Positions 12,013 through 38,847 of a DNA stretch of 38,847 bases are shown here, in pieces. Within the stretch, counting starts at the first letter, position 1. Every line of letters begins with the position of its first letter. Both the position numbers and the translations under genes were made by a program. Below the pieces are notes generated by a model. The model had not been told where the DNA came from and searched no databases. It worked only from the letters and a program-made list of their open reading frames with translations. The DNA is from Betaproteobacteria bacterium (GTDB taxonomy: Bacteria; Pseudomonadota; Gammaproteobacteria; Burkholderiales; Gallionellaceae): positions 1 to 38,847 of the forward strand of contig JAGVIV010000259.1 in NCBI GenBank assembly GCA_020055845.1, in the 5' to 3' direction.

Positions 12013-12143
12013 CTGTAATTCGGCCATAGCAGCCGGTGGCACCCAAATTAACCAACGACCGGTATGGACTCGTTACCGACCATCGGCGCGGGAATCATCC
12101 TGAACGTCTGCTATCTAAAATCTCGACTGCGTACTATCGACCC
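12013..12143 (+). repeat. 131-bp dispersed repeat, copy 1
   Basis: This block matches 27210-27340 on the opposite strand at all but about four positions. It begins CTGTAATTCGGCCATAGCAG and ends CTATCGACCC. It contains the inner palindromic-looking CGACCGGTATGG and ACCATCGGCGCGG segments. A short frame inside it can be translated in both copies, but the mismatches are not biased to third positions and no ribosome-binding site is present, so I treat it as noncoding. It resembles intergenic repeat families scattered in betaproteobacteria. Confidence 0.9.
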
Positions 12144-25696: not shown

Positions 25697-26134
25697 ATGA
25701 AGAAACAGTCAATCTTAGTCGCATCCCTTATCACTTTTGCATTGTTTTTTTCTCATGCTCAAGCCGCAGAGCCGCTTGAGCTACAAAAAGTGATGAAGGG
25801 GTTGGGCAAGAACATGCAGGTCATCACCGACGGTATCTCGCGCGAAGATTGGGAACTGGTAGCCAAGACAGCACCACTGATAGCAGCGCATCCCCAACCG
25901 CCGATGTCCGAAAAAATGCGCATCATGAGTTTCATGGGGACGGAGATGTCCATGTTTAACGCATTTGACGGCGAGACCCATGAAGCCGCTCATGAGCTTG
26001 AACATGTCGCACATGAGAAGGATGGACATAAAGTAATCGCCGCGTTCCAGAAAGTGCAAGCCACCTGTTTGAATTGCCACCAGACCTTTCGTAGCAAGTT
26101 TGTTGAACATTTTTACGGCACTGCAAGCAAGTAA
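25697..26134 (+). CDS. Class II c-type cytochrome (cytochrome c'/c-556-like), periplasmic
   Basis: A 145-residue protein with a signal peptide ending near HAQAAEP, a mostly helical body and one haem site CLNCH (124-128) close to the C terminus. This is the layout of cytochrome c' and c-556 four-helix bundles. Cytochromes c' often bind NO or act in electron transfer. Met residues in the first helix (MKGLGKNMQVI) could supply a sixth ligand as in c-556. An AAGGAG site lies 8 bp upstream. The next gene encodes a related protein. A link to the nor operon 4 kb upstream is inference. Confidence 0.85.
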   Translation: MKKQSILVASLITFALFFSHAQAAEPLELQKVMKGLGKNMQVITDGISREDWELVAKTAPLIAAHPQPPMSEKMRIMSFMGTEMSMFNAFDGETHEAAHELEHVAHEKDGHKVIAAFQKVQATCLNCHQTFRSKFVEHFYGTASK

Positions 26135-26173
26135 ATCGCTCATTGGTGTGCCATCTCACAAGGAGAAAATACT

Positions 26174-26641
26174 ATGAAGAACTGTAAATTGAGTTGGATT
26201 TTGGTTGCCGTGCTGTCCGTTGTTGTTGCCGCATTGGGGTACAAATTCACAGTAGGCAATGTGCGGCCATCGGACGATGGCCGTCAGGCGGTTATGTTGA
26301 GTAAAGATGAACGCAATGCTTTGTTGTTGGAGATGCGTGTGTGGTTGCAAAGTTCGCAAGGCATTTTGGCAGCGGCTTCCTCAAAAGATTTCGATGCGGT
26401 CATCAAATCAGCCAAAGCATCGGGAATGGGGGCCGAGGCAGATACTCCCGGCTCATTGTTCAGGAAACTCCCTGTCGAGATGAAGGCGCTGGGTTTTGAT
26501 ACGCGAGGGAAATTTGATGATATCGCTGCTGAAGCGGCAAAGTCAAAAGACAGCAATCAGGTAGTAACCAAGCTGAGTGTTGCCATGAATAACTGCATCG
26601 CATGCCACGAGATGTATCGCTTCGTTGAAGAAACCAAATAA
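26174..26641 (+). CDS. Membrane-anchored class II-like c-type cytochrome
   Basis: A 155-residue protein with a single N-terminal hydrophobic segment (about 7-23) that has no obvious cleavage site. A helical domain and a C-terminal haem site CIACH (141-145) follow. This is the same architecture as the gene 39 bp upstream, with little sequence identity beyond the haem region. Probably tethered on the periplasmic face. AAGGAG lies 8 bp before the ATG. It likely shares an operon with the preceding cytochrome. Role unknown; electron transfer or NO binding is plausible. Confidence 0.82.
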   Translation: MKNCKLSWILVAVLSVVVAALGYKFTVGNVRPSDDGRQAVMLSKDERNALLLEMRVWLQSSQGILAAASSKDFDAVIKSAKASGMGAEADTPGSLFRKLPVEMKALGFDTRGKFDDIAAEAAKSKDSNQVVTKLSVAMNNCIACHEMYRFVEETK

Positions 26642-26695
26642 ACCAAGTCGAACTGTTCGGGGTCGGCTTTTATTTGAAAGAAAGGTGACATAAGC

Positions 26696-27087
26696 ATGTC
26701 TACAATCAAGCAACCCCGAGGCTGGCTGATAAGTTCACTCTCGATAGTGGCAATCCAGTTTGGTTTGATGACAATCAAGGAAGGTGGCGCAGTGTTGCTG
26801 GGTAATGAGGCGGCAGTTGCCGCTGCTGGAAACTATGTGCCATTCGTACTCTGGTTCAATTTCTTGTCGGGCTTTGCCTACATCTGTGGCTACAGCAACA
26901 TTGGGCGGTTTGGCTAGCGGTGGCAATTGCCTCCGCAATCGCACTCACATTTACTGCATTCGGTATGCACATCAATTCCGGTGGCGCTTATGAGCAACGT
27001 ACAGTTATTGCGATGAGTATGCGTACTGCGGTGTGGTTCGTGATCGCGGGCGTGACGACTCGTCTGTTGTTGCGCAAGCGTATTTGA
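26696..27087 (+). pseudogene. Frameshifted small membrane-protein gene
   Basis: The first frame encodes MSTIKQPRGWLISSLSIVAI through NFLSGFAYI and then runs to a stop at about 26917. A different frame continues without interruption as LWLQQHWAVWLAVAIASAIA through GGAYEQRTVIAM to the stop at 27087. Together they make a plausible four-helix membrane protein of about 130 residues. The shift is at about 26881-26884, where homologues as I recall them have roughly six more residues, so a deletion of about 16 bp is likely. Either it is a recent pseudogene or this is an assembly error. It follows the cytochrome genes on the same strand. Confidence 0.75.
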
Positions 27088-27121
27088 AATTCTCGTGAAA
27101 GGTGCGTTGATTTAGATCACG

Positions 27122-27148
27122 CGTCAGCCTGTGAAAGTAAAGCTGACG
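27122..27148. repeat. Inverted repeat beside repeat copy 2
   Basis: CGTCAGC (27122-27128) and GCTGACG (27142-27148) are perfect 7-bp arms with a 13-base loop, 35 bp after the broken membrane-protein gene. No T-run follows, so termination is uncertain. Confidence 0.5.
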
Positions 27149-27209
27149 GCTGATAATTTATCATCGTAAACAGGCGGTAAAAAAGCAGCCTGTCGCCACC
27201 GTCTCTTGT

Positions 27210-27340
27210 GGGTCGATAGTACGCAGTCGAGATTTTAGATAGCAGACGTTCAGGATGATTCCCGCGCCGATGGCCGGTAACGAGTCCATACCGGTCGTTG
27301 GATAATTTAGGTGCCACCGGCTGCTATGGCCGAATTGCAG
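27210..27340 (-). repeat. 131-bp dispersed repeat, copy 2 (inverted relative to copy 1)
   Basis: The reverse complement matches 12013-12143 at about 127 of 131 positions. The flanks differ completely, so the repeat unit is sharply bounded: CTATCGACCC on one side, TGCAATTCGG on the other. It closes the accessory block opposite copy 1. Confidence 0.9.
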
Positions 27341-27761
27341 TCTATCTAGGCCCTAATTATGAATGCCGCTTGTTTTCCTCCGGACAGAAAATCCAAAGTA
27401 CAAAATGTGATGGAAAGCAACTAGTTGCACTGATTTAAATTCATAATCTTGCACTAGGAAATTTCGTATGCCTATTGCCGCGCTACTGACCGTTGCATGC
27501 TCAGCTATATCAAATATATTTATGTTTAGCTCCCAAGACGGCGCTTGCATTCTTAGTAATGCCCCCCAGAGCTGCCGGTATCTCTCCTATGAAATCTTTG
27601 TATAGCCCAATAACTTACAGGTAATGCTGCGATAAATCGCACTTGCAGTGCAATTTATCTTATTGATGAATAAAGAAATATATTGCATTTTTCCCAGCCT
27701 GCCCCAAAATATTCATCAGGCCACATTGGCTAGTTCGAATGCAAAATCGATTGGGATAAAT
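27341..27761. other. Intergenic region with no supported gene
   Basis: AT-rich. A 45-codon frame at 27468-27605 has AGGAA 7 bp upstream but shows no recognisable pattern. Nothing else is visible except the approach to the small gene at 27762. Confidence 0.35.
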
Positions 27762-27890
27762 ATGATCCGCACATTTTCTCAAGGGTTCATTAAGGGGGCC
27801 AAAGAAACCCCGCGCGCATTCTTTGCTCCAGCAGTTGCACTCTGGAGAGTGTTGCTAATTACGACAGAGTCACTCGTGAGCAAGAAGTGA
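27762..27890 (+). CDS. Small conserved-looking protein (42 aa)
   Basis: ATG at 27762 encodes MIRTFSQGFIKGAKETPRAF followed by FAPAVALWRVLLITTESLVSKK. The pattern of a basic amphipathic start, a KETPRxFFAP motif and a hydrophobic segment resembles short proteins I recall from proteobacterial accessory regions. The frame extends upstream to GTG 27648, but that extension looks random. The stop TGA overlaps the GTG of the next small gene (GTGA). Function unknown; possibly membrane associated. Confidence 0.5.
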   Translation: MIRTFSQGFIKGAKETPRAFFAPAVALWRVLLITTESLVSKK

Positions 27891-28048
27891 GTTCTGAATG
27901 CATCAGTGAGCTTCCAGAAGGATTCATCTCTTGGGAGGCATTCTTGGCACAGCTTCCCATTGAGGAGCGGGAGCAAATCAAGCAAGGCGGGGAGGAAATT
28001 GCGCAGGAAATCGCCAAGGCGAGATCCATTGCAGCCAATAAGACCTGA
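27887..28048 (+). CDS. Small acidic protein (53 aa), overlapping the previous gene
   Basis: GTG at 27887 overlaps the stop of the 42-aa gene by 4 bp and opens a 53-residue product reading SSECISELPEGFISWEAFLA, then QLPIEEREQIKQGGEEIAQE and a short basic end. It is strongly helical and charge-rich, unlike a random frame. The overlap is the classic sign of translational coupling. Function unknown; an antitoxin-like or regulatory partner for the upstream peptide is one possibility, without direct evidence. Confidence 0.5.
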   Translation: MSSECISELPEGFISWEAFLAQLPIEEREQIKQGGEEIAQEIAKARSIAANKT

Positions 28049-28392
28049 TGGATGTCTGAGCTTCCCTCGGTAATTCGTCTTCCAAGAGGTGAGTTTCATG
28101 CTACCAGTTTTTCCGGGTTAAATGCAGTCGTTAAATTTTTGTGCTTCTCAACGTCTGCTACGGGAAGCGGACTTAATCGACGGCGTGCGCCACCGGCAGC
28201 TAAGGCCGAGAATGTGAGGGTCAGAAATCGGTGCTACGTCATTTTGATGCAATGGCCTGCCCAATGCCAGAAGGGGCTTTGCAGCTGCAACTAAATCCGA
28301 AAATGCTTTAACTGATCGGTACCAGAGAAACCATTAAGCAGTCTCTCAGTTTTAAATTTATAGGCCGGAATAAGTACACATCATGTCGTGCC
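28049..28392. repeat. Intergenic region with a rearranged repeat fragment
   Basis: At about 28150-28205 the reverse complement contains CGGCCTTAGCTGCCGGTGGC, close to the first end of the 131-bp repeat (CGGCCATAGCAGCCGGTGGC). CAACGTCTGCT and AAGCGGAC, pieces seen in or beside copy 1, are also present. The copy lacks the middle. No gene supported. Confidence 0.5.
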
Positions 28393-28770
28393 TTATTCAA
28401 TTACCGTCAGTTCAATCTCTAGCCGGTCAAATTTCTCACTATGCGATTCTAATTTGTAGACGCGCAGTTTGTACCACGCCTCATCTTCATCATGTGACAC
28501 GCACAATTTGATATTGAAGCGGCTGCTAATCTGAATTGCCGAAGTGATACCAGTTTTATCGAAGCGCTCATCCCGTCCATGAAGAGTGGCAAGAAAATCT
28601 AACAGTAGTGCAGGTGAGATGAACGAAACATAGAGAAGCAACTCCATGCTTCCAAAATCGGCCCTCCACTCAAGTAAACAGTCCCTCGCATCTGTCATTG
28701 AATGCTTGAGCATGATTTTCTTTAATTCAGTTGGGCGAGTTGTCTGTTTTGAAATTGACATGAATGACAT
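28393..28770 (-). CDS. Hypothetical protein (125 aa)
   Basis: I do not recognise this family. It begins MSFMSISKQTTRPTELKKIM (a second Met at residue 4 is an alternative start) and has a central hydrophobic stretch MELLLYVSFISPALLLDFLATL. The C-terminal half is charged and beta-like, ending LEIELTVIE. It lies on the same strand as the restriction island, 330 bp after the 510-aa gene. Codon use and length suggest a real gene, but no motif supports a function. It may be the last member of the island or an unrelated gene. Confidence 0.5.
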   Translation of the reverse strand: MSFMSISKQTTRPTELKKIMLKHSMTDARDCLLEWRADFGSMELLLYVSFISPALLLDFLATLHGRDERFDKTGITSAIQISSRFNIKLCVSHDEDEAWYKLRVYKLESHSEKFDRLEIELTVIE

Positions 28771-29099
28771 GCTATTTATGATTGATCTATAGCTGGCAGA
28801 TGAATTCTTGGCTCAAAAACTGAAACAGTGGAAAAAATTGGACTCTGATTAGTGGATAGCATCGGACGCTGTTTGACACTGGTTGCCCAGCGTCCATCCT
28901 CCTCCATCTAGCACTATACACCTACACCGAGAATCAAAGATGGCTTAGCTTTGGGGCTGCGATGATCCGCACACAATAAAGCACTTTGACACCTGAAATT
29001 CGAAATCGCACTACCAAGGACGTCCGAACTGCCCGTGTGCTAATGTTCGCTCGGTGTATGAAGTCAGACATCTCCCCGATCGGATCTTCTTACAGACTG
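28771..29099. other. Intergenic region with a hairpin
   Basis: GGACGCTG (28864-28871) and CAGCGTCC (28888-28895) are perfect 8-bp arms, downstream of the 510-aa gene in its reading direction. No T-run follows. A weak frame on the plus strand from 28986 shadows the neighbouring gene and is not supported. Confidence 0.45.
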
Positions 29100-30632
29100 C
29101 TACTCCCCCAACATCTCAGCCAATTGGTTACTTTTTTCAAATGCATCCAAATGCAATATCAACGCACCATATGTTTCGAATCTAGCTTCGTGCCATTCCC
29201 CTGCCATTCCAGCCCTCGCGCTCATCTCGAAGTATGTTGAATCATTTTTCACCTTAAAGATTTGAATTTGCACGTCACTAAAAACAAAATTCAGCGTTGC
29301 ATCAAATCGGGCAAAGACTTCAAAGCCATGCGATTCAAGTGATGCCAACTCTTCTTCTGTGAAATGCAGATAATCAAATTCTTGGCTGTTCTCATCCTCT
29401 TCGGATACTTCCCACTCTTCCGAGATGGGAATGTCCGCAAGACGTGTGTTGAATCCGATATCACCCTCAAACCCCATGACCCCATAAAGAGCAAAGCTAA
29501 TCTCCGAACGCGGACAATATTTGTTACGGCCGAAACCCGAAGCATCAACTTCACCAACAATCCGTCGCTGTGCTGCTTCGCGCAATTTCCCTTGTATAGA
29601 ATTAAAGGCATGCTTGCGCCCTTTGCAACTTGGAGTTTGCATAAATGCAGCAGCTCCTTTTACTGCACTCCAGATACATACCAATATCTGATTTACAGGT
29701 AGATCATTAAGTAATTCCTCGAATATCTTTTCTGTTTTTTCTCCCGTATCGGAATCGAACCCATGTTCCCCAAGCATGTGCTGCATGTACTGAACGCATT
29801 CATCCACTGCAATAGTCCGAATGAGGATTGGTAGCTCTGCCTTTTGAAAGCGTGACAAACCGCCTACAAAAAGACTGCCCAGATAGTTCTGGGTATCCGG
29901 AATGTCCATACAGAATTCATCGTTCATTCGAATCGCTGGGAGAAGCGCTGCTTGAACGAAATACCAACTTATCGTTCTATCTTTATTTTCCAAAAAATTC
30001 GCAGTTGTGCAATGCTCAAGATCGATTTGAAGTAAATCACTTTTATAGATGGCTCGAAGCGAATTTATCGACTTATCTTTAGTTGGCCAAAAAAGCTCCT
30101 GCTTTTCCTGAAAGGGAACAAGATGTGTCAAATCCTCTGCCGCCCAAGTCTTCAACAAAGCATACAATCCTACCAACTCTGCTAAGGCAATCTCGCCGAT
30201 ATCTTGATACGACAAAGCTGGCTGGTCTTTATAGGCTTCGCGAATCTTATCGACGAAGGATGTTGCTTGCCGCTCTTTCTCCTGCTTTCTTGCATCAGAA
30301 CAATGAGCACATTTACAGTCCTTCAAAGGAATGCTCTGATTTCCCTCGATATTGGCAGTGACTATATGCCCGCACTTTTGGCAAGAATGAAGTATTTGAT
30401 CGATTGGCTTTGCTTTACTTGGAAGATTTGCGAGCATAGGTGAATTGCCACAAACGATACAGTTAAGATTATTTATCCTGACATTACCAAACAAGAGGTA
30501 AAACCTGGCTTCCGCCACATCCTCCAATCCCAATTCATCTAGCAACGAACGCACACTTTCTCCGCCCCTGTATCTTTGGTACAAAGCTAATATTTCAGAT
30601 GGTGACTTGCTGCTGAGTGCATTGCCTTCCAT
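29100..30632 (-). CDS. Zinc-ribbon protein of unknown function in the restriction operon (510 aa)
   Basis: I do not recognise this protein. The N-terminal 110 residues contain a helical segment (SPSEILALYQRYRGGESVRS) resembling a small helix-turn-helix. Three Cys clusters follow: Cys58/Cys61 (CIVC), Cys84/Cys87 (CQKC) and Cys106/108/111 (CKCAHC), suggesting zinc ribbons for nucleic-acid or protein binding. The remaining 400 residues have no visible catalytic motif and end in an acidic, probably beta-rich region (EEWEVSEEDENSQEF). ATG at 30632 is preferred over GTG at 30641. It lies 41 bp after hsdR on the same strand with no terminator between, so it is probably co-transcribed with the type I system. 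Confidence 0.75.
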   Translation of the reverse strand: MEGNALSSKSPSEILALYQRYRGGESVRSLLDELGLEDVAEARFYLLFGNVRINNLNCIVCGNSPMLANLPSKAKPIDQILHSCQKCGHIVTANIEGNQSIPLKDCKCAHCSDARKQEKERQATSFVDKIREAYKDQPALSYQDIGEIALAELVGLYALLKTWAAEDLTHLVPFQEKQELFWPTKDKSINSLRAIYKSDLLQIDLEHCTTANFLENKDRTISWYFVQAALLPAIRMNDEFCMDIPDTQNYLGSLFVGGLSRFQKAELPILIRTIAVDECVQYMQHMLGEHGFDSDTGEKTEKIFEELLNDLPVNQILVCIWSAVKGAAAFMQTPSCKGRKHAFNSIQGKLREAAQRRIVGEVDASGFGRNKYCPRSEISFALYGVMGFEGDIGFNTRLADIPISEEWEVSEEDENSQEFDYLHFTEEELASLESHGFEVFARFDATLNFVFSDVQIQIFKVKNDSTYFEMSARAGMAGEWHEARFETYGALILHLDAFEKSNQLAEMLGE

Positions 30633-30673
30633 ACCTATCACCCAATATCTATTGAAACGAAATATTAATCATT

Positions 30674-33600
30674 CTATAACCATGCCTCACCCAATGCCTG
30701 AGCCTGTTGCAACACCAGTTCAACAGCCGCATCCTGCATATCCGGCGGATATTTATACTTGCGCAAGATGCGTTTCACCATCAAACGCAATTTCGCTCTC
30801 ACACTTTCGCGCTGCGACCAATCGACGCTCAAGTTTTGGCGCAAGCTCTCAGTCAACTCATGGGCGATTTTCTTTAGTATCTCGTCACTCAATTCGCGCA
30901 CTGCGGATTCATTGTCGGCCAGCGCATCGTAGAAACGAATCTCGTCTTCCGTCAGCCCCAGCTCATCGCCACGCTCTGCCGCCGCGCGGAATTTCTTCGC
31001 CATCGCGATCAACTCTTCGATGACTTGCGCCGTTTCAATGGCGCGGTTCTGGTAACGTTTGATCACATCAGTCAGCAGATCGGAGAACTTCTTGTCCTGC
31101 ACAATGTTGCCCGCAAAGCGGGTTTTAATTTCCCCTTGCAGTAAACGCTCCAGCAACTCAACCGCCAGATTCTTCTCCGGCAGGTTGCGCACCTCGGCAA
31201 GAAACGCATCATCCAGAATACCGATGTTGGGCTTATCCAAACCCACCGCGTTGAAAATATCCACCACCTCTTCCGACACCACCGCCGAACCGATGATCTG
31301 CCGGATTGCTAACTCGCGCTCCTCGTTGGTTTTCTTTTGCTGGCTGATCTCGCGCTTGGTCAGGATCACTTTCACCGCCTGGAAAAACGCCACCTCTTCA
31401 CGCACGGCTTTGGCTTCGTCTAGTGTGCAGCACAAGGTGAACGCCTTGCTCATCGCCAGTGCGGTATCGGCAAAGCGCTTCTTGCCATCCTTCTCGCCCA
31501 GCACATGGTTGGCTGCGCCCGCGAGACGTTTGTGGCTGGCCGTTAAGAAGTCGCTGTAGTCGTAGCCGGACAACAGACCGCGCAGGATGTCCAACTTTTC
31601 TTCCAGCACCGCATACGCCTCATGCGCATCCACCGTCGGCTTGCCGCGCCCGTTGCTATTGGTGTATTCCTTCAGCGCACTGCGCAACTCATTGGCGATG
31701 CCGATATAGTCCACCACCAAGCCGCCTTGCTTGTCTTTGAACACACGATTCACCCGTGCAATCGCTTGCATCAGGTTGTGCCCCTTCATCGGCTTATCCA
31801 CGTAAAGGGTGTGCACGCACGGCGCATCAAAGCCCGTCAGCCACATATCGCGCACAATGACGATCTGCAACGGATCAGCGGGGTCTTTGAAGCGCTTCTC
31901 CAAGCGTTTCTTCATCTGCCCACTGTAGATGTGCGGACGCAGCAAAGCCTTATCGCTGGCCGATCCCGTCATCACGATCTTGATCGCGCCTTTCTCGGGA
32001 TCAGCGTCATGCCACTCAGGGCGCAGCTTGATGATCTCGTTGTACAAGTGGACGCAAATCTCGCGGCTCATCGCCACGACCATCGCCTTGCCCGTCTGCG
32101 CCTTGCTGCGTTCCTCATAGTGCGCCACCAAATCCGCCGCCACACTCGCCACACGCGGCTCTGCCCCCACCACTTTTTCTAACGCAGCCCAGCGGCTCTT
32201 CAACTTGGCTTGCTGGCTTTCCTCTTCGTCTTCGGCCAGCTCATCCACCTCATCGTCAATCTGCACCAGCTCTTCCGCTTTCAAAGACAACTTGGCCAAG
32301 CGAGACTCAAAGTAGATGGCTACAGTCGCACCGTCTTCCTTCGCCTGCTGCATGTCGTACACATGGATGTAATCGCCGAACACAGCGCGCGTGTCTCGGT
32401 CTTCGCTGGAAACAGGCGTACCGGTGAAAGCCACGAACGTGGCATTGGGTAAGGCATCGCGCAAGTGCTGTGCGTAGCCCACTTGATAAACCGACTTCGG
32501 CTCCGCCGCCATCAACGCTTGCGCATCATTCGCTGCTTCACGCGAAGGCTTGATGGTCTTCAGCTTCGCCTCAAACCCGTATTGCGTGCGGTGCGCCTCG
32601 TCGGCAATCACCACGATATTGCTGCGCTCAGAAAGAATGGGGAAGGTGTCTTCATCCTCACCCGGCATGAACTTCTGAATGGTGGCGAACACAATGCCGC
32701 CCGAGGGACGGTTGGACAACTTCGCGCGCAAATCTTGCCGCGTGTTGGCTTGCACCGGCTGCTCGCGCAACAAATCCTGCGCCAGCGAAAACACCCCGAA
32801 CAACTGCCCGTCCAAATCGTTGCGGTCGGTAATCACCACAATGGTCGGATTTTCCATCGCCGTTTCGCGCATCACCCGCGCAGCAAAGCACGTCATGGTG
32901 ATGCTCTTACCGCTGCCCTGCGTATGCCACACCACGCCGCCCTTGTGCGACCCACCGGGGCGCGAAGCGGTCACCACCTGATTGATTGCCGCGCGCACCG
33001 CATGGAACTGGTGATAGCCCGCAATCTTTTTAATCAGCGCACCATCATCCTCGAACAGCACAAAGTAGCGCAGATAATCGAGCAGATAGGCCGGAGCCAG
33101 CACACCGCGAATCAGCGTCTCCAACTCATTGAACTGCCCCAGCGGATCAAGCATCGCCCCGTCAATCGTGCGCCACTGCATGAAGCGCTCGGCATCACTC
33201 GACAACGAACCCAGCCGCGCCTCGCTGCCGTCCGAAATGACCAGCACCTCGTTGTACTGGAACACATCGGGAATCTGCTCTTTGTAAGTTTGAATCTGGT
33301 CATAGGCTTTCCAGATGTCGGCGGCTTCATCGGCGGGATTCTTTAGTTCCAGCAACACCAGCGGCAAACCGTTCACGAACAGAATCACATCCGGTCGGCG
33401 GGTGTGGTGTGCGCCTTTAATAGAAAACTGATTGATTGCCAGCCACTCATTGCGGCTAGGCTCTGCCCAATTAACAAGCCGCACAAAATCGCCGCGCGTC
33501 TCATTACATTGCTGATACTGCACCGGAACACCGCCCACCAACAATTGATGAAAGTGCTTGTTGGCCGAGAGCAGCACTGGCGTGCCCAGATCAACCACCT

Positions 33601-33826
33601 GCTTGATCGCATCCTCACGTGCAGCCGCAGGTATCGCCGGATTCAGCCGCTCAACCGCCGCACGCAACCGCTCCACCAGCACCACCTGCCGGTAATCGCT
33701 GCGCTCGGGTGCATCGCCATCTACCGCGATGTCCGGGCCGTACAACGTGGAATAGCCCACCTCGGTGAGCCAGCCTAATGCTTCCTGTTCCAGTTGGTCT
33801 TCGGTCATCAAAAAATTCCAATGCAT
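30674..33826 (-). CDS. hsdR: HsdR, type I restriction enzyme endonuclease/translocase subunit
   Basis: About 1050 residues. The N-terminal nuclease domain has PD-(D/E)xK residues Asp146 (RRPDVILF) and Glu160-x-Lys162 (LLELKNP). The SF2 motor follows, with Walker A TQGSGKS, DEAH box [12 protein letters not shown], motif III FTGTP and motif VI IARVNR. A C-terminal helical domain binds the methylase. HsdR cuts unmodified DNA after ATP-driven translocation, in complex with HsdM2S. ATG at 33808 ([14 protein letters not shown], the usual family start) is an alternative to 33826. The gene is intact. DUF3800 and kwaAB separate it from hsdS. Confidence 0.95.
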
Positions 33827-34048
33827 GTTGATACGGCACGTAAAGTGTTTATTCCTAGTAGCAACTTAACATTCAACTTAGCAAGCTAAGTTCATAACCA
33901 ACTGATTTATATATGACATAACTCTGAATAACGCAAGATTTAGCATTAACTAAATGACTGTTAAGAAGCATTCCGTAGCTGATTTTAAGTTGCCAGCCAG
34001 AGTATTGCCGCATAGAATACGTCCATGGACTGGGGATTCTCGGTCGGC
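33827..34048. other. Intergenic region between hsdR and the DUF3800 gene
   Basis: About 220 bp, AT-rich near hsdR, with no open frame I can support. It must carry any separate hsdR promoter. It ends in the plus-strand terminator at 34049. Confidence 0.4.
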
Positions 34049-34084
34049 AAAGGCCTCCGGCGATAGTCGGGGGCTTTTGTTTTT
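34049..34084 (+). terminator. Plus-strand rho-independent terminator without an obvious gene
   Basis: GCCTCCGGC-GATA-GTCGGGGGC pairs over 9 bp with two wobbles and is followed by TTTTGTTTTT on the plus strand. All genes around it read left on the minus strand, so it would end an unrecognised plus-strand transcript, possibly a small RNA starting after about 33900. Confidence 0.65.
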
Positions 34085-34089
34085 GTGCC

Positions 34090-34857
34090 TCACGGAAACA
34101 CCTTCAACCCTAAACCCTCCGCATGTCCATTGGTCTGCGCCAGCTTGGCTTTTAGCAAATCAAATGCGCGGTTAGGCTGATCAGGCCGAATCACCGACAA
34201 CCCAATAGGTCGCGCAACCAAATCGGCAAGCTGCAAGCCCGACGAGTTGGATCGTTTGTCGGCAAACACAATCTCAAACGGAAAGTCTTCGCTCTTGTAA
34301 TTACCACCATCACAGATGCGGCGAAACTCCAGCTCCAGCTCGTTATCCTCGTTTTGGCCGCGCTTCTCCACCACCAAATGAACATGCGGATTTTCTTTAT
34401 TGCCGCTACGCCATTCGCCCTGCTTCTTCAAAAACGCACTGATACGCTCCAAACCAAACTGCAAGGCCAGATGGTAAGGATTCTCCGGTGTTTTGTATCG
34501 TTCCTGTAGCTTATCCTTGCGGATCACCACTGCGACCAGATGAAACGGCGCTGCCGCCATGATGCTCGTCAGTTCCTCGATAAAGGCTGCTTTCAATGCC
34601 TTGGTTTTCAGAAAAGCAAAAGCCCCAAGGTCACGCCGAATCTCACGCTCATGCAAAATCACCTGATCATGTCCAAAGTGACGAAACTTGAAGCCCTGCA
34701 CGGCAGGCACAATCTCCGCCAGATATTGGTTTTTGCGCACCACCATGAAAGCCAACACTAGCAAGGGGAAGTCGGGGTCAATATTACCCAAGGACGGACT
34801 TCCGCTCTCGTCAACGAAGACCAGATACTCGCTGAAAGCTTTACTCGCATGTGTCAT
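34090..34857 (-). CDS. DUF3800 domain protein
   Basis: A 255-residue protein with the DUF3800 opening YLVFVDESGSPSLGN (Asp and Glu near 15-16) and the conserved C-terminal block FADKRSNSSGLQLADLVARPIGL. The family is thought to have an RNase H-like fold with acidic active-site residues, and its members often lie in defence islands and on mobile elements. Biochemical function is unknown. It sits between the kwaAB cassette and hsdR on the same strand, so it may be co-expressed with the restriction system. The ORF is intact, with no membrane segments. Confidence 0.85.
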   Translation of the reverse strand: MTHASKAFSEYLVFVDESGSPSLGNIDPDFPLLVLAFMVVRKNQYLAEIVPAVQGFKFRHFGHDQVILHEREIRRDLGAFAFLKTKALKAAFIEELTSIMAAAPFHLVAVVIRKDKLQERYKTPENPYHLALQFGLERISAFLKKQGEWRSGNKENPHVHLVVEKRGQNEDNELELEFRRICDGGNYKSEDFPFEIVFADKRSNSSGLQLADLVARPIGLSVIRPDQPNRAFDLLKAKLAQTNGHAEGLGLKVFP

Positions 34858-34935
34858 GTGCCAACCTTTTCAAAAATAGCCTCTACGAATTTGGTCAGCA
34901 GGCTGCTGGCTAATTTAAATAACGGCATTTTATGC

Positions 34936-35016
34936 CTATTCCAGCGCAGCCTCGGCTTCCGGCACGCGCAGTTGGCCGGAGATCAGGCGGGGGAGCAGCG
35001 TGTCGCTGGGCGTCAT
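34936..35016 (-). pseudogene. Duplicated 3' end of hsdS (26-codon remnant)
   Basis: The minus strand encodes [26 protein letters not shown] and a stop. Full-length hsdS at 36516 ends [22 protein letters not shown]. The DNA at 34972-35006 matches 36549-36583 at 33 of 35 bases. The scrap starts 1 bp after the kwaB stop, and its different final residues suggest it is the tail of the original hsdS, or of another allele, displaced when kwaAB entered. Confidence 0.85.
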
Positions 35017-35017
35017 A

Positions 35018-35962
35018 TCAAGTTGGACTGCCTAGCTTATGCTTCACATCGACATCGAAATTTTCGGAATTTATTTTCGATGTTAAGCGGTCGTTATTCA
35101 GCACGCGCAAAACTATTTCAATGTCTTCCTCTGTGACTAGCAGCTTTCCATCTGCGGAATACTTTATTCCCCAGCCTTCTTCAGCATTCACTCTTTTTAG
35201 ATTCGCCAAAAAGTTGGCATCTTTGTAATAAGCAGCTTTTTTGACTTGTGACAATCGCCGCAAACGACGAATGTTGTTACCGACCAAGGTCGAAATCTCA
35301 GTGGCGTTCTCAAACAGGTTCAGGGTATGAAACTCATCTACGATTTCATCGCGGTTTCGTTCCATACCTTCCCTGAAGTTCAGGGCGGTCTCGAAATTCT
35401 TCTTGTCCGCTATGAATGTCGTGCCATCGTAGGAGAAAAAATCCACCTTCCCGTCTATTCGGAATATCTCTTTCTGATCAATATCAACCAGCATGTTATC
35501 TTGAAATATCATGCTGATAAGCTGAGAAACCTTTTTGGTTGTCCAGCCCTCGGATACGCGTCGTGCCGCATACATCGGCGGTTTCCCAGCAATATCTAAG
35601 CGAGCGATATAGAGCCACGAATCAATTAACTGTTCAATCGAATCAGCAAAGCCCGGTTCATCTTCTGCGGCAATGACATCGATGATGGCCTGGAAATCTG
35701 TTTCCGATGTGGCAATACCAAGAAGGTTGTCATCTAAATCGGCAGTATGGAAGTCATATTCAAGCGCATTGTTTGACTGCTGAATCTTGCTGCTTGCAAT
35801 ACCACGCAACCTTTTTCGCAACTTATCATCGGCATTGACTTGCAGTACATCGTAGGTGGCTTGTCGATGAACTAACGTGCGTTTAATTAAGTAGAGCGAA
35901 ACGCTGGCACGAGACCAGTCGAGTGTTTTAATTTTGGCAAGCAGCCTCTTTTTTTCTTCCAT
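35018..35962 (-). CDS. kwaB: KwaB, Kiwa anti-phage defence protein (DUF4868)
   Basis: A 314-residue protein fitting DUF4868. The N-terminal half is variable. The central part contains the conserved pattern EIFRIDGKVDFFSYDGTTFI followed by ADKKNFETALNFREG, and the C terminus reads LRVLNNDRLTSKINSENFDV and VKHKL. In the known Kiwa system KwaB is a cytoplasmic, DNA-binding effector that associates with membrane KwaA and blocks phage replication. It starts 2 bp after kwaA. Family assignment is from motif pattern, length (E. coli KwaB about 315) and its membrane-protein partner. Right after its stop comes a copied piece of hsdS. Confidence 0.83.
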   Translation of the reverse strand: MEEKKRLLAKIKTLDWSRASVSLYLIKRTLVHRQATYDVLQVNADDKLRKRLRGIASSKIQQSNNALEYDFHTADLDDNLLGIATSETDFQAIIDVIAAEDEPGFADSIEQLIDSWLYIARLDIAGKPPMYAARRVSEGWTTKKVSQLISMIFQDNMLVDIDQKEIFRIDGKVDFFSYDGTTFIADKKNFETALNFREGMERNRDEIVDEFHTLNLFENATEISTLVGNNIRRLRRLSQVKKAAYYKDANFLANLKRVNAEEGWGIKYSADGKLLVTEEDIEIVLRVLNNDRLTSKINSENFDVDVKHKLGSPT

Positions 35963-35964
35963 GC

Positions 35965-36519
35965 TTACACCTCTGGGTTACGTTCTGTGACCAAATAAAG
36001 TTGCTCTGAAATTTCGACAATCCGGCATTGCTCGTTTTTCCTTAGTCGCCCGCCCTTCGCCAGCCAGTAATCCTGATACTCCCTGCCATTCTTTTCGTAA
36101 TGCACATCAAAGATGTTGTATCCCAACATGGCAAGAATAGGGTTGTTGAAGATAGTGTGCGTTTTGAGTGTCAACCAAAACATGATGAACATGAAAAAGG
36201 CAAAGCTAATGAGAAGCTGGGTATTCCAGTGTTCAATGACAAAGAAGGAAACCATGTACGGGATCGTGTAACTGACCAACTCGCTCGACTTGTTTGATAC
36301 GGATTTTACGGTAACTGGTGCCATTGAAACTTTGGGAAGGCTCACTGTTGCCCACAAAATAATGCAGCTCACCACCGCCAAGCCAAGAATCGGCCAAATA
36401 ATGTGCGGGTGCAGCATTTCTTGTTTCTCGAAATCATAATTCTGAATGCAGAAAATTATGGCAAGCGGCGAATAAGCACTCAGAAAAATAATGACCGATG
36501 AAAATATCCGTAGCTTCAT
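35965..36519 (-). CDS. kwaA: KwaA, Kiwa membrane sensor protein
   Basis: A 184-residue protein with four predicted membrane segments (about 6-26, 40-59, 86-104 and 105-122) and a cytoplasmic tail containing NIFDVHYEKNGREYQDYWLA. This is the size and layout of KwaA, which detects phage attachment or membrane change and recruits KwaB. Sequence is poorly conserved in this family, so the call depends on the adjacent DUF4868 gene. Its ATG overlaps the hsdS stop (ATGA), so translation is coupled to the restriction specificity subunit. This is unusual, since Kiwa is normally a stand-alone pair. Confidence 0.78.
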   Translation of the reverse strand: MKLRIFSSVIIFLSAYSPLAIIFCIQNYDFEKQEMLHPHIIWPILGLAVVSCIILWATVSLPKVSMAPVTVKSVSNKSSELVSYTIPYMVSFFVIEHWNTQLLISFAFFMFIMFWLTLKTHTIFNNPILAMLGYNIFDVHYEKNGREYQDYWLAKGGRLRKNEQCRIVEISEQLYLVTERNPEV

Positions 36520-37832
36520 ACAAGCTCGCCCTCTGCAGAAATACGAATTTGGCCAGAAATCAGGCGGGGGAGCAGCGTGTCGCGGAGAGTGGCGAGGGTT
36601 TGGGCTTGCTGCTTATTATCGGAAAGCTTCGATAACAGCGGTGCACTTACATCGTGAAAGATTTGCATGATGGCTGTACAAGGTAAAACACATTGAATGC
36701 CTGCGACCACATCTGGACGCACAGCTGGATAAGCAGCACCGTCGGCAAGATGCGCGAGGTGTTCAATGCTTGCGTCTTGTGTTGCAGCGAGATAAACAAA
36801 CTCGGTGTTTGCAACCAGCGTTGGGCGCAGTACGGCAAAGCCTGTGCTGCCAGTCAGATTTTCAGTCGGCTCATGGATGAATGCAAAGGAACGATTTCCC
36901 GGACGCACTGTACCGACAATCGTATCACCATCGCGCAGTACGCGCCGTGCGCGACTTGGCGCCTCATCGAATAAATATTCGGAGACCTCCGCAACTTCGT
37001 TATCTTTGACATTTGCCAAATCAATATATGCCAACACGTCAGGATGATTTTTCGTCGTCCATGATTCAGGATTGAGCGTTGCCAAGTTTGCCAGCGTTCC
37101 AATCTTCCACCCCCTCGGCACCAAACCCAGTTCCGATTCCTCGAAGCTGTCGGGGAAGAGCGCGGCGGTGGTTTCGCTCATGCCTTCGGGGGCGCGGCCT
37201 TGTTGCTTGGCGTGGACGGGATCGAAATCGACAAACCACGATTTGAACGTCGCCTGCGCAATGGCTTCCAGCGTGACATTGGTTTCGCGCAGAAGGGCGA
37301 TGCGGTCGTCGAGTGCTCCAAGTATTGTGGATATTGATTCTTGTTCGATGAGGGGTGGTAAGAGAAATCGGAACTCACAAATCCGAGTAGGCGCTGTGTG
37401 TTTGACCGTTGAGCCTGTCGCACCAGAAACAACATGATGCCGATAGTCCCGGCTTCGTAAAAGGTAGTGCAAATAATTTGATTGAACAGCTGCGCCGGGT
37501 TTAATTTCGACCAAGCCTACACGCTGATTGTGAAGCCAAACAGTGCCTTCTGTTTTAGGAATAACGGCGGCATAACCAAGCGTGTCTGCGGCACGACTCA
37601 AGTCGGTCATGGTGACTACAACATCGCCTTTATGAAGAACATAATCCTCGGGTATAACTCCAGAGTAATACTTCCCTTTACCTAGTTGAAATCCACCACC
37701 AATCGCAAAATTGCCCGGGGTAACCAATTGGTATTGGGTTGGCACTTCACTGAAAAATTCGCTCTTGAAGGCATATCCGTGTTTTACCGAAATCAAGTCA
37801 CCAAGCTTGAAATCTGTCCATTCAGAACTCAT
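36516..37832 (-). CDS. hsdS: HsdS, type I restriction specificity subunit
   Basis: A 438-residue protein with two target-recognition domains, each followed by a conserved helical spacer. The first spacer includes [20 protein letters not shown] and [17 protein letters not shown], the second [24 protein letters not shown]1 starts [20 protein letters not shown] and TRD2 [19 protein letters not shown]. It determines the bipartite DNA target of HsdM methylation and HsdR cleavage. It overlaps hsdM by 11 bp and kwaA by 4 bp. The last codons are duplicated 1.6 kb downstream. Confidence 0.94.
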
Positions 37833-38847
37833 ACCCCAGCCCTCCCAGCTTCTGCCGGATCAAAGCATCGAGTTCGGTTCCCTTCGCCATTTGCTCGCCC
37901 AGTTTTTCGGTGAGCTTTTGCATCTTATCGGCGAAAGCTTCGTCATCGTCTTCCACTTCTTCCGCGCCAACATAGCGGCTAGGGGTGAGGACGTGGCCGT
38001 GTTCGGCGATTTCTGCGAGTTTGACGCTGCGGCAGTAGCCGGGAATGTTGGCGTAGTCGCCAGCGTCTTTCTCTTTACGCCATGAGGCGACGGTGGCGGC
38101 GATGCGCTCAATGACCTCATCGGTGAATTCAGTTTGCACGCGGCTGATCATAGTGCCGAGTTTGCGCGCGTCGATGAAGAGCACTTCGCCTTGTCTTGTG
38201 GTTTTTTGTTTGGCGAGGAACCACAGGCAGGCGGGAATCTGAGTATTGAAGAAGAGCTGGCCGGGCAGCGCGATCATCACTTCCACCACGTCGGCTTCGA
38301 CCATCGCTTTGCGTATCTCGCCCTCGGAGTTTTGGCTGGAGCTCATGGAGCCGTTCGCCAGCACGATGCCCGCGCGGCCATTAGGTTTGAGGTGGTAGAG
38401 CATGTGTTGCAGCCACGCATAGTTGGCGTTGCCCGCAGGTGGGTCGCCATACACCCAGCGCGGATCGCCGGTGAGGCTGCCGTGCCACCAGTCACTGATG
38501 TTAAACGGTGGGTTAGCCAGGATGAAGTCGGCGCGCAGGTCGGCGTGTTGGTTTTTGGTGAAGGTGTCGCCCGGCTCGCGCCCCAGGTTGAAGTCGATGC
38601 CGCGAATGGCGAGGTTCATCGCGGCCAAGCGCCATGTGGTGGGGTTGGATTCCTGCCCGAACACGGCGACATCGCCCAGCTTGCCGCCGTGCGATTCGAT
38701 GAACTTTTCCGACTGGACGAACATGCCGCCGGAGCCGCAGCAGGGGTCGTACACTTTGCCATGATGCGGTGCGAGCACGGCGACCAGCGTTTTGACGATG
38801 CTGGCTGGGGTGTAGAACTGGCCGCCGCGCTTGCCTTCGGCGCTGGC
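37822..38847 (-). CDS. hsdM: HsdM, type I restriction adenine methyltransferase (partial, 5' end outside window)
   Basis: The last 341 or so residues of an N6-adenine methylase. [18 protein letters not shown] leads into the SAM-binding motif [12 protein letters not shown] and the catalytic motif [10 protein letters not shown]. HsdM methylates one adenine per half-site within the HsdM2S complex, protecting host DNA. The frame is open to the window edge, so the N-terminal domain lies beyond 38847. The first Met inside the window (38778) is internal and not the start. It overlaps hsdS by 11 bp and heads the operon as seen here. Confidence 0.95.

Follow-up and report, generated by a model that had tools for sequence, protein, structure and literature searches.

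The available text of PMC11514479 describes Kiwa as a system of two genes, which encode KwaA and KwaB. The available part of PMC12255303 places DarTG2 between hsdS and hsdR, and proposes the hsdS-hsdR site as a recombination hotspot for defence systems. On the Psychrobacter plasmid pP62BP1, ORF32 is listed as a 401-aa hypothetical protein that is 22% identical to a Hahella protein, and the available part of that report assigns it no function or family (PMC3346939).

In this study, we analysed a window of 38,847 nucleotides, which is the entire contig C57 from a draft genome with 343 contigs and 2.79 Mb in total, and focused on a gene for a 510-aa protein directly behind a type I restriction-modification (RM) operon that also carries Kiwa. 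The results showed that the 510-aa protein belongs to a rare and so far undescribed protein family, and that the gene is probably a recent cargo of this operon.

The 510-aa gene lies directly behind hsdR

The genes of the operon follow one another on the minus strand. The first, hsdM (37822-38778), lies near the contig end and lacks its N-terminal part; it was identified by both Pfam and PADLOC, as were hsdS (36516-37832) and hsdR, the type I restriction subunit (30674-33826). Between hsdS and hsdR lie kwaA (35965-36519; PADLOC E 1.1e-43), kwaB (35018-35962; PADLOC E 1.5e-102) and, after 160 bp, a DUF3800 gene (34090-34857; Pfam E 2.5e-17), which is separated from hsdR by 263 bp. The 510-aa gene (29100-30632), whose relatives were found by tblastn and profile searches, starts at an ATG at 30632 and ends with its stop at 29100, and an alternative GTG start at 30641 would give 513 aa. 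The gap of 41 bp to hsdR and the shared strand given by the initial annotation were thus confirmed. No minus-strand terminator-like site is listed in this gap, in a scan that says little because it returned 17 sites against 12.8 expected. It is possible that the 510-aa gene and hsdR lie on one transcript.

The GC content of the 510-aa gene is 43.4% (GC3 0.42), compared with 56.5% for hsdR (GC3 0.71); kwaA and kwaB are likewise low in GC, at 43-44%. A 125-aa ORF (28393-28770, minus strand, GC 42%) lies 329 bp behind the 510-aa gene on the same strand; Pfam gave no match to it at cut-off, and PADLOC gave none. Within 26500-31000, the Rfam scan gave nothing at gathering score, and no flanking direct repeats marking an element were found. 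A 131-base stretch occurs twice in the window (27210-27340 and 12013-12143), 97% identical and in opposite orientation, and is possibly a small mobile repeat; pieces of 28058-28882, shorter than this repeat, recur in genomes of the genus.

We compared the 510-aa protein with four libraries and found no match at cut-off in any of them, which agrees with the initial statement that no known motif is present. The best values were E 0.71 in Pfam, E 0.12 in PHROGs and E 0.043 in NCBIfam (13.7 bits against a cut-off of 37), and PADLOC gave no match.

The 510-aa gene is absent from sister hsd loci

HsdR matches were present in 99 of the 158 genomes of the same bacterial family. We compared 13 hsd loci whose HsdR was 56.8-95.8% identical to that of the window. 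G061 was set aside because its contig breaks off within hsdR on the side to be compared, as were several split matches and those at or below about 49%. The 510-aa gene was found in none of the 13 (blastp E ≤ 1e-4, ORFs of 70 aa or more); the flank past hsdR extends for only about 1 kb in L064 and about 1.6 kb in L071, and hsdR of L067 is a fragment. The sole Kiwa-bearing sister among these loci, L062, carries hsdM, hsdS, kwaA and kwaB (97-98% identity), a SoFic gene and hsdR, and lacks the 510-aa gene, so that the gene does not travel with kwaA and kwaB. It is also missing from L066, a locus of the window's genus with 96% identity in the DUF3800 gene and 88.5% in hsdR, whose contig ends before hsdS. 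At the DNA level, positions 26000-31000 were compared with seven other genomes of the genus: G118 matched only 26003-27080, G115 only 30680-31000, within hsdR, and the others gave either no match or only pieces no longer than about 130 bases.

The gene therefore adjoins a defence operon, is absent from sister operons and differs from hsdR in GC. Because it is missing from the sister loci and the genus genomes and its GC is unlike that of hsdR, we regard it as cargo of this operon, probably a recent one. The initial annotation had described the gene as attached to the restriction/Kiwa operon and fixed there. The attachment holds for this genome, where the gene lies directly behind hsdR in an operon with type I RM, Kiwa and DUF3800 genes, while the 13 sister loci, including those with the same Kiwa pair and the same DUF3800 gene, contradict fixation. 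These findings indicate that a gene behind a defence operon needs comparison with sister operons before it is called a component.

The interval between hsdS and hsdR (33827-36515 in the window) was compared with its counterparts in the sister loci (L060-L072), and its cargo differs between them. The window holds Kiwa and DUF3800 and L062 Kiwa and SoFic, whereas Fic genes occupy L060 and L070, and Schlafen AlbA_2 genes L063, L064 and L065, the last together with a YhcG nuclease. DUF4357 and DUF3800 were found in L068, SIR2_2 in L069, RhuM/Fic in L072 and nothing in L061. In L069, an Mrr gene lies behind hsdR. A hotspot of the same type has already been proposed (PMC12255303).

The protein belongs to a rare and widely scattered family

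The family as collected comprises 21 loci including the window, with the other 20 in Pseudomonadota, Bacillota, Bacteroidota and Actinomycetota; in the alignments made, the relatives are 14-25% identical to the window protein. A pattern scan of genome contigs with the window protein as sole query gave no relative. With tblastn against 72,556 plasmid records, five relatives were found, and further queries with these added ten, giving 15: four in Psychrobacter, two in Streptomyces and one each in Virgibacillus, Rossellomorea, Exiguobacterium, Methylophaga, Thiothrix, Oceanisphaera, Janthinobacterium, Pseudomonas and Citrobacter. The remaining members are the window, a Chitinophaga chromosome contig, a gammaproteobacterial draft genome (L026, the same contig as G1113), G075, G727 and G747. 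Among the 158 genomes of the same bacterial family, a member was detectable only in the source genome and in G075, where the protein is 385 aa long, 22-24% identical and not at an hsd locus. With the profile A1, two more genomes were identified in a sample of 398 from the phylum (three counting the window), and a single additional one in 274 from the class of G727 (two counting the centre). With the centre set aside, this amounts to 1 of 157 genomes sampled in the bacterial family, 2 of 397 in the phylum and 1 of 273 in the class of G727. When genome contigs were scanned a second time, two loci came up, one of them a contig already in the set.

Two candidates were dropped. G1031, which came up when profile A9 was run on 274 genomes from the class of the window, matched over 49 profile positions only, and G385 (L005), from a single-sequence search of 399 genomes of the order, was by eye a stretch of a RecF/SMC-like ORF. 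Phage records queried with two members gave no match, and five pattern scans of viral contigs, each with two to six short patterns, gave no relative. Among E. coli genomes, none had DNA of the Citrobacter member, the sole member tried there, whose gene encodes tetratricopeptide (TPR) repeats. The literature search, in which subscription journals are thinly covered, found no title or abstract opening naming the family.

We then assessed selection in the members with close homologues. The dN/dS values were 0.17-0.28 in all six close Psychrobacter pairs and one Streptomyces pair, a test that covers the relatives, the window copy having no close homologue. The close relatives are under purifying selection, and when dN/dS was split by gene region no consistent fast part appeared. 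Since the relatives retrieved by the profile share the Cys pattern and the core, and since close pairs of relatives show these dN/dS values, the 510-aa gene is not a mere chance ORF.

In all four Psychrobacter plasmids, a gene for a 69-aa XRE regulator faces the family member (L018 180-389, L019 1-210, L020 107-316, L021 22-231). The XRE proteins are 94-99% identical in amino acid sequence, compared with 60-88% for the family members.

A conserved helical core carries different front ends

To describe the architecture, we used an alignment of 18 rows (A9), with L014, L019 and L021 left out. In the window protein, an HTH-like helical segment (residues about 5-47; 30492-30620, minus strand) appears as three helices in a low-confidence model. 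It is followed by a zinc-ribbon-like module of CxxC, CxxC and CxCxxC (residues 58-111; 30300-30461, minus strand), then by a conserved helical core (residues about 139-396; 29445-30218, minus strand) and a C-terminal tail (residues about 397-510; 29103-29444, minus strand) that has no counterpart in other members. The three Cys clusters noted in the initial annotation were located at residues 58/61, 84/87 and 106/108/111, and its long domain was borne out as far as the core extends, the last ~110 residues being a tail private to the window copy. Residues 417-510 of this tail had no Pfam match, and its strands and helix are seen solely where the model has a pLDDT below 50.

The core of about 250 residues is common to all aligned rows. 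In window numbering, L156 is conserved in 18/18 rows, P183, L308 and S376 in 17/18 and R369 in 15/18. The front ends differ. Ten of the 18 rows have an HTH-like segment followed by CxxC, CxxC, CxC and a last Cys (front A), five have another segment followed by two Cys pairs (front B), and three have TPR repeats recognised by Pfam, the HTH-zinc front being wholly absent there. Both Cys pairs are present in all 15 non-TPR rows, CxC in all ten front A rows and the last Cys in nine of these ten. When the family profile was compared with the PDB, the best match was the zinc ribbon 1qyp (E 0.007), covering the Cys module only; together with the conservation of the Cys pairs, this is in keeping with a zinc-ribbon-like module, as initially named, in a protein whose fold is modelled with low confidence. 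The HTH reading is weak: the family consensus matched resolvase HTH_7 with E 0.06-0.09 and 14.0 bits, where the curated cut-off of 23.8 was not reached.

The tree of the core was rooted by midpoint, and the window row is a long branch whose position is uncertain. The TPR rows group together (support 95/89) within a clade that also contains the HTH-zinc member L004 (96/93). This nesting suggests an exchange of the front end, in which TPR repeats took the place of an older front.

Structure prediction and a fold search, proposed in the initial annotation, gave poor models and no recognised fold. The model of the 510-aa protein had a mean pLDDT of 45.2, with residues 271-360 at 65-82 and helical; the core of L026 modelled alone had a mean of 51.7, with residues 141-240 at 60-86 and helical. 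Foldseek returned 133 rows with E ≤ 10, none with E ≤ 0.001 and the best at 1.9. In VIA, the best scores were Z 5.7 (rmsd 22, 111 aligned) and 5.6 (3.4, 85 aligned) for the 510-aa model and Z 5.1 (3.5, 83 aligned) for the core model, and the rows were scattered over AAA+ lids, ParB, designed bundles and others. A missing fold match is no evidence of a new fold.

Relatives lie near defence genes of different kinds

At 6 of the 21 loci, a recognised defence system lies within 2.2 kb on the same strand, with five kinds represented; these are raw counts that have no matched control, so we claim no statistical enrichment. Besides the window, with hsdR at 41 bp, relatives were found near a TIR effector (L026, 141 bp; PADLOC E 6e-8), AbiL (L027, AbiLi and AbiLii, 76 bp), a type I RM as annotated (L018, 1.4 kb), a type III-like RM (L029, DNA methylase and ResIII helicase, 0.36 kb, one small ORF between) and an E2/E1/JAB gene (L015, 2.1 kb upstream, two genes between), in agreement with the defence context initially seen at one locus. 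The neighbour in L026 also matched the Pfam nucleoside deoxyribosyltransferase with E 4e-5, below that family's cut-off. By eye, this TIR-effector-like protein behind the member (L026 3037-3960) starts with two CxxC pairs, and the gene pair thus holds a second zinc-ribbon-like front.

Four more loci have defence genes within about 8 kb, as annotated: BREX in L017, a type II RM in L021, a restriction endonuclease in L009, which also has a RES-Xre pair at 2 kb, and a cytosine methyltransferase, AbiEii and DndB in L010. The context is ambiguous in three loci, with a GAP1-N1 protein on the other strand in L016, a reverse transcriptase in L020 and a DUF4411 gene with an HTH in L008. No defence gene was recognised in the other eight (L004, L006, L007, L014, L019, L022, L023 and L028), among which L004 has a trypsin-like gene and an integrase fragment nearby. 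The initial annotation would have counted homologues scattered with no defence context against an immune role. The outcome is mixed: the homologues are indeed scattered, six of the 21 have a recognised defence system within 2.2 kb, four more have defence genes within about 8 kb, three are ambiguous and eight have none that was recognised.

Plasmid records account for 15 of the 21 loci, a high share that arises because a plasmid collection was searched. Of the six loci from outside this collection, four belong to the group within 2.2 kb, and since the window was picked for its defence context the fair count is three of five. PADLOC models gave no match to the members, the best value being E 0.034 for one of 18 rows. 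Two unrelated plasmids carry a CoiA-annotated gene at a distance of 1.1-1.2 kb from the member (L006 8025-8846 and L020 2793-3902). For the gene upstream of the Methylophaga member, an AcaB-type identity was rejected; the gene had no Pfam match.

Possible functions of the family

The constant core with different fronts points to a sensor coupled to an effector or relay that the members have in common. The changing neighbours and the absence of the gene from sister operons suggest that it is autonomous and moves from island to island, and because members often lie near defence genes of different kinds, the protein may be a stand-alone immune protein. We therefore favour, at slightly below an even chance, the reading that the 510-aa protein works autonomously as an accessory of defence islands and mobile elements, and that it is most likely an anti-phage protein of a stand-alone, abortive-infection-like kind. 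We infer that the front end would sense, in the window copy through the HTH-like segment and a zinc ribbon binding DNA or RNA, and in other members through the different front with two Cys pairs or the TPR array; the conserved helical core would then act or relay the signal. The gene would have landed behind hsdR in a type I RM operon carrying Kiwa and DUF3800, and may be transcribed together with that operon. The GC content of the gene and the dN/dS values of its relatives fit this reading as well. Against it stand the eight loci with no recognised defence gene, the choice of the window for its context, the plasmid origin of most loci, the lack of a PADLOC match, the HTH alignment below cut-off and the poor structure models.

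A broader form of this proposal is possible but rather doubtful: an undescribed stand-alone immune family of at least four phyla would carry swappable sensors (HTH-zinc, other Cys or TPR) on a new all-helical effector or signalling core, and would move between RM, Kiwa, AbiL, TIR, E1/JAB and BREX neighbourhoods. If this were true, it would add a rare, widely spread immune protein family that is missing from PADLOC-DB 2.0.0, and the natural series of front-end swaps on one core would make the sensing and the acting part testable by domain exchange.

We consider it unlikely, though it is the strongest rival, that the protein is a regulator of mobile elements, in which the HTH and zinc ribbon bind DNA and the core dimerises or senses, controlling plasmid or island genes and perhaps adjacent defence genes. 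Such a role would suit the HTH-like and Cys-bearing front and the XRE gene facing all four Psychrobacter members. Tyrosine recombinases or integrases also lie near several members (L016, L009, L017 and L008), the integrase of L016 ending 34 bp before the member's start as used, and the member in L014 sits, by eye, inside conjugation-type genes. However, the conservation sits in the core, the neighbours vary by locus, and DNA binding is not the shared function because the TPR members lack the whole HTH-zinc front.

Less probable still, and in our judgement improbable, is a maintenance protein of plasmids or islands, an addiction or partition-type factor whose defence neighbours are only fellow passengers. 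The number of plasmid loci, the facing XRE gene in Psychrobacter and a ParA gene near the Rossellomorea member are in keeping with it, but the plasmid share can be put down to the collection that was searched, no partner gene is seen repeatedly among the members, and, according to the available parts of two reports, two member-bearing Psychrobacter plasmids have separate replication and partition modules (PMC3346939, PMC6514802). A plasmid replication initiator was rejected on the separate REP modules that the same sources give for these two plasmids.

We regard it as very improbable that the protein genuinely belongs to, or regulates, this type I RM system or Kiwa: its place 41 bp behind hsdR on the same strand, the lack of a listed terminator-like site in the gap and the position of L018 1.4 kb before a type I RM operon would fit, but occupancy weighs against it (0 of 13 sister hsd loci, so that no conserved place in the operon exists), GC differs from hsdR, and relatives adjoin unrelated systems.

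Comparison with known systems

With the reading of a stand-alone accessory protein in mind, the family can be set beside described proteins part by part. The Cys module has paired CxxC motifs in common with zinc ribbons of the RPB9/MCM type (1qyp as above; MCM, E 0.05); this module alone matches, and no counterpart to the core was found there. The Cys region also matched weakly the NCBIfam model of ECs_2282 putative zinc-binding proteins in two of six members scanned (best E 0.003), a model of 60 positions against which the window protein scored 13.7 bits, below the cut-off of 37. As a whole protein, one family member has been in print since 2012: ORF32 of pP62BP1 is the member L021 and was reported as a hypothetical protein (PMC3346939).

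At the level of the operon, Kiwa shares its operon with the 510-aa gene in the window genome. The protein is not similar to KwaA or KwaB, which are encoded by separate genes, and has no homology to HsdM, HsdS or HsdR by Pfam and PADLOC; the sister operon with the same Kiwa pair lacks the gene. Compared with DarTG2, the 510-aa gene is a single gene, lies behind hsdR and is unrelated to DarTG by library searches. Like the embedded genes of the DarTG2 type, as presented in the available part of PMC12255303, it is hsd-operon cargo that varies between sister loci.
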